64,000 bases of DNA from Anaerolinea sp. (GTDB lineage: Bacteria; Chloroflexota; Anaerolineae; Anaerolineales; Villigracilaceae), in the NCBI GenBank assembly GCA_020719725.1, contig DYPU01000001.1, positions 1-64,000 on the forward strand. Direction: 5' to 3'. Within the stretch, counting starts at the first letter, position 1, and each line of letters begins with the position of its first letter. A program made the translations under genes and the position numbers. The notes beneath the pieces were generated by a model. That model searched no databases. It saw only the letters and a list, made by a program, of their open reading frames with translations, and was not told the DNA's origin. This document shows positions 3,608 to 33,494 of this stretch, in pieces.

Positions 3608-3648
3608 GGTTTTCTTGGGAGTGGGGTGAGGTGATAGAGAGTTTTTAC

Positions 3649-3741
3649 GGGAGTGGATGGGAGTCGAACCCACCCTGGAACGCAACGCGCCCCAACACTG
3701 ATTTTGAAGACCAAGAGGCCCACCAGGACCTAGCCACTCCC
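3649..3741 (-). tRNA. selC: tRNA-Sec (anticodon UCA)
   Basis: Reverse complement GGGAGTGGCTAGGTCCTGGTGGGCCTCTTGGTCTTCAAAATCAGTGTTGGGGCGCGTTGCGTTCCAGGGTGGGTTCGACTCCCATCCACTCCC: 8-bp acceptor, 6-bp D stem, CTTCAAA anticodon loop, long variable arm, TTCGACT T-loop. Confidence 0.93.
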
Positions 3742-31164: not shown

Positions 31165-32433
31165 CTAATCCTGCCACTCCAACTCGTAATCGCCAATGAA
31201 GACAGTATCACCTTCGTCAACGCCTGCCGCGCGCAAGGCTTTTTCGATGCCAAGCGCTTCAATGATGCGTTGGAAGCGTCTGACCGAGCCGCTGTGCTCC
31301 CAATAGGTCATCGCCGCTGCGCGTTCGATGGCGGGGCCGGAAACGCGCCACTGTTTGCCATCTTCGCGGACAATCGTAAATTGATTGGGGTCTTCCTGGG
31401 GTCGATAAATTGGCAGGGCATTGGGAATAATATCTTCCATGGTTGGGGTTTCAGCCAGGGTTTGGAAAGACTTAAGCAGGAGTGCGCGAACTTCGGTGTG
31501 AGCCATGGCCGAGATGGAGATTAACTCGATTCCACGCTTTTTTAGGTCTTTTTTTAGCTTGGCGAAACGCTCTTGCGCTTCGGGTAGGTCAATCTTATTC
31601 AGCGCAACAATTTGCGGTTTTTTAGCCAGGTTTTCGTCAAAAAGTGAAAGCTCGGTGTTAATTTGGCTAAAATCGGCCAGTGGGTCTTCCGACATGCCAT
31701 CTAACAGATGAATCAAAACCCGGGTGCGCTGAATATGACGTAAAAAGTCATGCCCCAGGCCAATCCCCTGGCTTGCGCCTTCAATTAGCCCTGGGATGTC
31801 GGCCAGTACGACGCTGGTGTCCTCGTCAATTTCGGCCACACCCAGATTGGGCTGGATGGTGGTGAACGGGTAGGGGGCTATTTCAGGCTTGGCGTTGGTT
31901 AAAACCGACAAAAGGGTCGATTTTCCAGCGTTGGGTACGCCAATAATCCCGATATCTGCAATTAGTTTTAATTCCAGCCGCACACGTTTTTCTTCGCCGG
32001 GTTCGCCTTTTTCAGCCGTGCGTGGAACCTGATTCTTGGAGCTTTTAAAGTGAACGTTCCCGCGCCCGCCGCGCCCGCCTTTGCATACCAGCAGGCGCTG
32101 ACCATGCGTGGTCAGATCGCCCAGCAGGCCGCCTGTCTCAGCATCATAAATCACCGTTCCGAGTGGAACGGGAATTACCAAATCTTCAGCTGAACGTCCA
32201 AACATTTTCTGCGATCCGCCGCCTTTGCCGTCACCGGCTGCAAAACGCATGGTGTGCCGAAAAGATACCAAAGAGTTGACGGTATGCCGCGCTTCGATGA
32301 TCAGGTCGCCGCCTTTACCGCCGTCGCCGCCATCTGGTCCGCCGCGTGGAACATATTTTTCGCGGCGGAAGTGCATCATGCCATTGCCGCCTTTGCCCGA
32401 TTTTACAAAAATTTCTGCCTGGTCAATAAACAT
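31165..32433 (-). CDS. obgE: GTPase Obg/CgtA
   Basis: MFIDQAEIFVKSGKGGNGMMHFRREKYVPRGGPDGGDGGKGGD, GVPNAGKSTLLSVLTNAKPEIAPYPFTT, DIPGLIEGA; Obg C-terminal domain. Confidence 0.97.
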   Translation of the reverse strand: MFIDQAEIFVKSGKGGNGMMHFRREKYVPRGGPDGGDGGKGGDLIIEARHTVNSLVSFRHTMRFAAGDGKGGGSQKMFGRSAEDLVIPVPLGTVIYDAETGGLLGDLTTHGQRLLVCKGGRGGRGNVHFKSSKNQVPRTAEKGEPGEEKRVRLELKLIADIGIIGVPNAGKSTLLSVLTNAKPEIAPYPFTTIQPNLGVAEIDEDTSVVLADIPGLIEGASQGIGLGHDFLRHIQRTRVLIHLLDGMSEDPLADFSQINTELSLFDENLAKKPQIVALNKIDLPEAQERFAKLKKDLKKRGIELISISAMAHTEVRALLLKSFQTLAETPTMEDIIPNALPIYRPQEDPNQFTIVREDGKQWRVSGPAIERAAAMTYWEHSGSVRRFQRIIEALGIEKALRAAGVDEGDTVFIGDYELEWQD

Positions 32434-32493: not shown

Positions 32494-33168
32494 TTATCTC
32501 TCGATTGCGTTAATGCCATATTTGGTCAGCAAGTCGTCGAGCGCCTCGCGGAGTAATTCGGCTTCGCCGGCTTCGCGCTCTACTGCTAGTTTTGTCAGCC
32601 GTTCAAGCTGGGTTTGGGTGTAATGAGATGTTTTTGGAATCATTTTTTCATCATAGGCCAGCCGAACCTTGGCGCGTCCGGTGGCTTTGGCGCGATAAAG
32701 AGCCTGATCGGCCTTGCGCATTAGTTCGGATTTCAGGCGGCCATCCACTGGGTAGCAAGCGATGCCGCCGCACAGGGCGATTCCGGCCAGTGCTTCCTGT
32801 TTTTCGCCAATAATAAAGGTCTTTGCGGCAGCTTCGGCACGCAATTTTTCCAGAGCCAGAAATGCTTGCTCTCGTTCGGTATTGGGGAAAAGAACAGCAA
32901 ATTCATCACCGCCATAGCGGGCGCAAATAGCCTGCTCACCACAAAACTGCTGAATTAGGGTGCCGATGGTTTTTAAGACGTCATCGCCGCCAGAATGACC
33001 AAAATCCTGGTTGATGCGATAGAAAAAGTCGATATCGATAAAAGCCAGCGCAATGGAGGTGTCTGCGCCTTTGGTTTTTGCCAACAGATCATCAAAAGAT
33101 TCGTGGAAGGCCTTGCGTGAGATCAATCCGGTTAGTTCATCATTGGTAGGCGGTTTTTTTGCGTACAT
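32494..33168 (-). CDS. diguanylate cyclase (GGDEF) with a C-terminal ribbon-helix-helix-like segment
   Basis: DELTGLISRKAF, IDIDFFYRINQDFGHSGGDDVL, ARYGGDEFAVLFP, KADQALYRAKATGRAKV; then KTSHYTQTQLERLTKLAVEREAGEAELLREALDDLLTKYG. Confidence 0.92.
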   Translation of the reverse strand: MYAKKPPTNDELTGLISRKAFHESFDDLLAKTKGADTSIALAFIDIDFFYRINQDFGHSGGDDVLKTIGTLIQQFCGEQAICARYGGDEFAVLFPNTEREQAFLALEKLRAEAAAKTFIIGEKQEALAGIALCGGIACYPVDGRLKSELMRKADQALYRAKATGRAKVRLAYDEKMIPKTSHYTQTQLERLTKLAVEREAGEAELLREALDDLLTKYGINAIER

Positions 33169-33196
33169 TCTTTCTCCTTTTTATTTTTGTAATATA

Positions 33197-33230
33197 CATA
33201 AATAATATGTCAATATATTATTTATGTCAA
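33197..33230 (-). promoter_or_regulatory. promoter with embedded perfect inverted repeat (putative operator)
   Basis: CATAAATAATAT-N6-ATATTATTTATG (33197-33208/33215-33226). Minus-strand -35 TTGACA (33230-33225), N17, -10 TATTAT (33207-33202). Confidence 0.75.
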
Positions 33231-33374
33231 GTATGTTTTTATATATAACTTAAGCATTTCTCGGGGGTAAGGATTGGAATTAAGCTCTTGCCAAAATTTT
33301 CTTTGGATAGGCAATGCGGTCTTCTTAGCTTGCCAATTTTTATCGTGAGAGTTGCTTTTTTTGAAAAATTGTGC

Positions 33375-33417: not shown

Positions 33418-33490
33418 GCCCTCGTAGCTCAGTGGATAGAGCGCTTGCTTGCGGAGCAATAGGTCGCGCGTTCGAGTCGCGCCGAGGGCA
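33418..33490 (+). tRNA. tRNA-Arg (anticodon GCG)
   Basis: GCCCTCG...CGAGGGC acceptor, GCTC/GAGC D stem, TTGCGGA anticodon loop, TTCGAGT T-loop, discriminator A; CCA not encoded. Confidence 0.9.
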
Positions 33491-33494
33491 CCTG

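Follow-up and report, generated by a model that had tools for sequence, protein, structure and literature searches.

A GGDEF–ribbon-helix-helix protein family with predicted operator boxes in its own promoter

Introduction

In the usual picture, sensor domains control diguanylate cyclases, and their product, cyclic di-GMP (c-di-GMP), is read by separate proteins. In E. coli, the "trigger phosphodiesterase" PdeL (YahA) carries a LuxR-type helix-turn-helix (HTH) and binds and activates its own promoter (PMC5052742). The same account lists PutA as a trigger enzyme that binds and controls promoters directly, and it contains no "trigger DGC", that is, no trigger diguanylate cyclase (PMC5052742). 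CdbA of Myxococcus xanthus is a ribbon-helix-helix (RHH) protein that binds c-di-GMP (PMC7156744). Here, we analysed a gene from a 64,000-nucleotide stretch of an Anaerolinea sp. genome (contig DYPU01000001.1; the whole stretch is called the window), which encodes a GGDEF domain followed by an RHH tail. An earlier note on this DNA had placed such a fusion at 32494-33168 and read it as a c-di-GMP synthase that binds DNA itself. Its coordinates are correct and the strand, which it did not give, is minus; its observation as a whole is confirmed by the analysis below, and its interpretation is supported.

An enzyme and a DNA-binding domain in one chain, the combination that marks trigger enzymes, are present in the GGDEF-RHH protein. 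Like PdeL, it joins a c-di-GMP enzyme domain to a DNA-binding domain; PdeL binds to an imperfect palindrome in the region of its own promoter, and the promoter of the GGDEF-RHH gene carries predicted boxes. PdeL has a c-di-GMP-degrading EAL domain and an N-terminal LuxR-type HTH and activates itself, whereas the window protein has a GGDEF synthase domain and a C-terminal RHH, with boxes that point to repression. PutA is also an enzyme fused to an RHH, which in its case controls promoters directly, but it is a metabolic flavoenzyme with an N-terminal RHH and no second messenger. CdbA likewise links an RHH to c-di-GMP; it is a stand-alone RHH without a GGDEF domain and resembles the tail only in fold, at 8% identity. 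The CopG, Arc and CopASO repressors and antitoxins share the fold of the tail and repeated operator sites, but they have no enzyme domain and their RHH is commonly N-terminal. DgcB, PleD, WspR and other GGDEF cyclases share the catalytic domain and active-site residues and lack a DNA-binding tail, and many of them add sensor or receiver domains as well as an I-site. The GGDEF-like domain of PucR-type regulators is degenerate, whereas the GGDEF-RHH protein keeps its catalytic residues and uses an RHH. Regulators of this type, such as MabR, resemble it in pairing a GGDEF-fold domain with a DNA-binding domain (PMC11617747).

Results

The gene and its domains are laid out as follows.

32494-33168, minus strand: GGDEF-RHH gene, 224 amino acids (aa), open reading frame (ORF) call
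33168-33166 and 32496-32494, minus strand: start codon ATG and stop codon of the gene
33174-33178, minus strand: ribosome-binding site AGGAG, read from the sequence
32671-33141, minus strand: GGDEF (diguanylate cyclase) domain, residues 10-166, PF00990 E=1.6e-36
32518-32643, minus strand: C-terminal RHH, residues about 176-217 (strand about 178-183), from Pfam, AlphaFold and Foldseek

A search with the protein returned its 100% self match and full-length orthologues in the same genus, family and order, and no NCBIfam equivalog scored above its cut-off. Searching a tail profile in 85,462 genomes gave 139 loci that encode a relative, of which we kept the best 80. Every fully readable ORF among these best 80 loci is a GGDEF-RHH fusion. 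The ORF of one locus (L041) is interrupted by the contig end, and the GGDEF motif itself is altered in a few family members.

The tail alone matched PF20605 Antitox_RHH at E=4e-06 and 27.3 bits (curated cut-off 27.2), and within the whole protein the same family scored 25.8 bits, slightly under the cut-off. PF12651 RHH_3 was detected in 43 of 45 relatives (best E=5.8e-08). AlphaFold2 places an extended stretch at 177-183 before helices 185-197 and 202-217, which in this single-chain model are the two helices that the earlier note had named. The mean predicted local distance difference test score (pLDDT) of the full protein is 88.8, falling to 72-75 at residues 171-200, 68 at 201-210 and 63 at 211-220. 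In RHH proteins, the strands of two chains pair in an intertwined dimer, and the resulting two-stranded ribbon enters the DNA major groove; the models here cover single chains, in which the strand would lie unpaired. A separate model of the tail alone (pLDDT 79) was compared with the PDB by Foldseek. Nearly all top matches were RHH proteins, namely CopASO, ORF56, CopG, Arc, omega, the PutA DNA-binding domain (2ay0) and AmrZ, with CdbA lower. The template modelling (TM) scores of these matches are 0.60-0.67; their E-values are 0.46 and up, because the tail is so short (about 45 residues). A sequence search of the PDB with the tail gave weak matches only, some of them to RHH proteins. As judged by the Pfam matches of its relatives, the AlphaFold model and Foldseek, the tail is an RHH, as the earlier note had claimed.

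The region directly upstream of the gene holds a promoter and a box array.

33202-33230, minus strand: sigma-70-type promoter, TTGACA 33225-33230, 17 nt, TATTAT 33202-33207 (11/12 consensus positions)
33215-33221, minus strand: predicted operator box 1, ATAATAT, in the promoter spacer; ATAWTAT family, 13-bp spacing
33202-33208, minus strand: predicted operator box 2, ATATTAT, overlapping the -10
33189-33195, minus strand: predicted operator box 3, ATATTAC, 1 mismatch
33196-33227, no strand assigned: perfect 13-bp inverted repeat ACATAAATAATAT / ATATTATTTATGT, 6 bp between the arms, directly upstream of the gene

The inverted repeat falls in 33190-33235, the stretch that the earlier note had singled out for an electrophoretic mobility shift assay (EMSA). 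Across the family, the upstream 250 bp repeat the ATAWTAT box every 13 bp (every 13 or 14 bp in Bacillota). Exact boxes numbered 51 against 5.9 in shuffles for 31 upstreams and 173 against 17.1 for 45, and pairs spaced by 13/14 bp numbered 22 against 0.01 and 78 against 0.06, respectively. With all 76 promoters taken together, 100 box pairs were found against about 0.07 in shuffles. Box density was 11.8 per kb upstream, compared with 0.18 per kb elsewhere in these loci, and the 99.75 kb around 29 non-RHH cyclase genes contained 5 boxes and no pair.

We take T180 and H182, by comparison with Arc, to be the outward-facing strand residues of the tail. These predicted DNA-contact positions are conserved in 100% (T180) and 99% (H182) of the main clade. 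Where the strand reads KT.H, the box is ATAWTAT in 69 of 76 cases. Two Chloroflexota clades differ: with KT.Y the box is ATACATA in 8/8, one of the eight (L142) still having H, and with KS.Y it is ATATATA in 15/16 and ATAWTAT in 0/16. Hence the operator sequence changes together with the predicted reading strand across clades. The DNA binding by the tail that the earlier note had proposed is thus strongly supported as a prediction, from an own-promoter box array that recurs across phyla and changes with the reading strand.

An RHH tail and a matching, conserved box array in its own promoter make direct control of its own gene by the enzyme very probable. Protein bound over the -10 and the spacer normally blocks RNA polymerase, and boxes at these positions point to repression of the enzyme's own synthesis. 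We therefore consider it likely that the protein is a diguanylate cyclase that represses itself, its RHH serving both for dimerisation and for binding to its own promoter.

Several points weigh against this reading. The upstreams are related by descent, and the shuffle expectation ignores kinship; boxes in intergenic DNA that are conserved across phyla and in unrelated gene neighbourhoods are nevertheless hard to explain by relatedness alone. The box change tracks the clade, so that phylogeny and base composition confound the covariation of strand and box, and L142, with H in the ATACATA clade, makes the correspondence imperfect. Another protein could in principle read the ATAWTAT boxes. If so, the RHH might only dimerise the GGDEF domains for catalysis, while the promoter answers to a different regulator. 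GGDEF domains must pair for c-di-GMP synthesis, and the protein has no other dimerisation module. This alternative seems very unlikely to us, as the boxes accompany the fusion gene in several phyla, where its neighbours are unrelated, and change with the RHH reading strand, and the predicted contacts T180 and H182 are almost invariant in the main clade. The protein might also activate its own promoter, in a positive feedback as in PdeL. The boxes of the window cover the -10 and spacer, where bound protein would normally block RNA polymerase, and make self-activation distinctly improbable, even though PdeL, a known c-di-GMP enzyme with a DNA-binding domain, does activate its own gene (PMC5052742).

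The reach of the predicted self-repressor was assessed by pattern scans. In 8 Chloroflexota genomes, the exact palindrome is present only at the promoter of the GGDEF-RHH gene, and one-mismatch sites elsewhere occur at about the level of a reversed-pattern control, several of them within genes. Scanning 11 further genomes gave few sites. A palindrome confined to its own promoter, with other sites near the control level, makes dedicated autoregulation more likely than a regulon, and the target on DNA, as predicted, appears to be this one promoter and not a broad regulon. A genuine transcription factor with a wider regulon, making c-di-GMP locally at its target promoters, would fit the habit of RHH proteins to have several targets, and strict patterns could miss degenerate boxes. 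Given the control-level counts in the 8 genomes and the few sites in the 11 others, we regard such a regulator as unlikely.

In the GGDEF domain, the window protein scored 126 bits against PF00990 (curated cut-off 23.8), and in Foldseek its model is matched by DgcB, PleD and other solved cyclases. Among 76 relatives, D45 and N53 are conserved in 100%, D62 and K161 in 99% and the GGDEF motif at 86-90 in 96-99%. In PleD these are presumably D327, N335, D344, GG[D/E]EF and K442 for D45, N53, D62, GG[D/E]EF and K161. With catalytic and guanosine triphosphate (GTP)-binding residues intact, the domain is predicted to be an active-type diguanylate cyclase. We also take D62 to be the aspartate/serine position of Hypr (cyclic GMP-AMP-type) GGDEF enzymes. 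The latter have serine at this key aspartate position (PMC6456294). A Hypr assignment was rejected, since the position is aspartate in 75 of 76 relatives, and c-di-GMP is thus the expected product. Pfam found no sensor domain N-terminal of GGDEF in the window protein, so the earlier description of a GGDEF enzyme with its core motifs and no sensor was borne out.

The same holds for the missing RxxD inhibitory site (I-site), a feature that is common among GGDEF cyclases and not defining: it is absent from the window protein and found in 0 of 73 relatives with a readable site. Its absence removes the usual product feedback, for which feedback through expression would be an attractive, unproven substitute. 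It also lends itself to another explanation, in which the RHH binds c-di-GMP like CdbA, so that the product competes with DNA and stands in for the I-site. Such binding is quite unlikely in our view, as CdbA matches the tail at only 8% identity in Foldseek, and AmrZ, also an RHH, does not bind c-di-GMP (PMC7156744). In CdbA-type proteins, the c-di-GMP-binding residues are K8/S10 and the R27/R30 regions; the comparison with CdbA was one of the overall structural match. CdbA-like binding is kept as a low-probability rival.

The family occurs in Anaerolineae (Chloroflexota), Spirochaetota, and Lachnospiraceae and other Clostridia (Bacillota), and one member each carries the label Armatimonadetes, Poribacteria, Hydrogenedentota or Pseudomonadales. 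In the Pseudomonadales case (L058, so labelled by its contig), the GGDEF domain groups with Chloroflexota, possibly through a binning error or a transfer. A survey of Chloroflexota for this architecture, as the earlier note had proposed, found strong tail matches in 11 of 399 genomes, all in ORFs of 215-336 aa. Weaker matches lie mostly in ORFs of about 80-200 aa, and those that were read resemble small CopG/antitoxin-like RHH proteins, which agrees with RHH homology of the tail. In a tree built from GGDEF columns only, one branch (100/97) splits 55 RHH-type from 29 non-RHH GGDEF domains. A single fusion event, with the RHH-type GGDEF domains of the sampled tree forming one family by descent, is supported and not proven, because the non-RHH set was drawn from Chloroflexota only. 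Conservation of the tail is 0.82, compared with 0.59, among relatives found through the tail, so that its higher value is partly ascertainment; the trend is repeated in eight members that were found with the whole protein. A search of phage and plasmid collections for signs of a mobile origin gave no match to the tail at E 0.01. No description of a GGDEF-RHH protein was found in the literature, in a search that reached few subscription journals and is hence no proof, and the architecture with its operator is apparently undescribed. The earlier remark that the fusion is not a standard architecture holds to this extent, but with a family across several phyla it is no oddity.

Some members have features of their own. 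Those of Lachnospiraceae (e.g., L063, L065 and L072) carry an N-terminal extension of about 30-40 aa (RPITVEDHKELN...) and have lost the DxLTGL motif, unlike the Chloroflexota forms. In one Anaerolineae genome, the GGDEF-RHH gene is directly preceded by a second small ORF that is GGDEF-like (L073:2000-2494, plus strand). No c-di-GMP riboswitch was found at the Rfam gathering score in the leaders of 13 loci. Several Lachnospiraceae loci (L090, L093, L107, L116 and L117) share a leader that resembles a hairpin, GTCCGACTTAACCGGAAAAAGCCGGAC, immediately before the start codon, with no Rfam match. Near a family gene of Clostridia, on the other strand, lies a lysine riboswitch (L088:1821-1995, minus strand; Rfam RF00168, 92.4 bits).

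No partner gene is conserved beyond the genus, and neighbours differ among the other loci. In the window, the gene is flanked by two features.

31165-32433, minus strand: obgE, following the GGDEF-RHH gene on the same strand
33418-33492, plus strand: tRNA-Arg(gcg), starting about 190 bp beyond the promoter

The obgE neighbour is also found in a close relative (L048) and not in other clades. Elsewhere in the window, ARAGORN found a tRNA-SeC gene at 3648-3741 (minus strand), which suggests selenocysteine use in this Anaerolineae genome.

Discussion

Both domains, intact catalytic residues, the lack of an RxxD I-site, membership of one family within the sampled tree, a conserved operator array and its change with the reading strand are seen from sequence. 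For the likely self-repressing cyclase, we infer in addition catalytic activity, physical DNA binding, repression instead of activation, and coupling to the nucleotide state. The RHH would dimerise a protein that lacks a sensor and any other dimerisation module, and would dock the cyclase as stacked dimers on ATAWTAT boxes at 13-bp spacing. The docked cyclase would cover the -10 and spacer of its own promoter and so repress its own synthesis. DNA occupancy or catalysis may change with the nucleotide state (GTP or c-di-GMP) of the GGDEF domain, or with GGDEF pairing on DNA. Together, these parts would make a self-contained c-di-GMP homeostat, a "trigger diguanylate cyclase", in which c-di-GMP production would be coupled to transcription.

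A bolder and rather doubtful extension is that DNA serves as the input of the cyclase: RHH assembly on boxes spaced by 13 bp would pair or separate the GGDEF domains, so that occupancy switches c-di-GMP synthesis and feeds back on expression. If true, this would be a one-gene second-messenger circuit without a sensor domain.

The GGDEF-RHH proteins form a widely distributed, apparently undescribed family, in which a c-di-GMP synthase is joined to a DNA-binding domain whose target, as all signs in the sequence suggest, is the promoter of its own gene. In this they would mirror PdeL, a trigger phosphodiesterase. The boxes, residues and fragments named here are testable predictions on whether c-di-GMP synthesis can be coupled with transcription in a single polypeptide, in a family that occurs in gut and rumen Lachnospiraceae and in environmental Chloroflexota.
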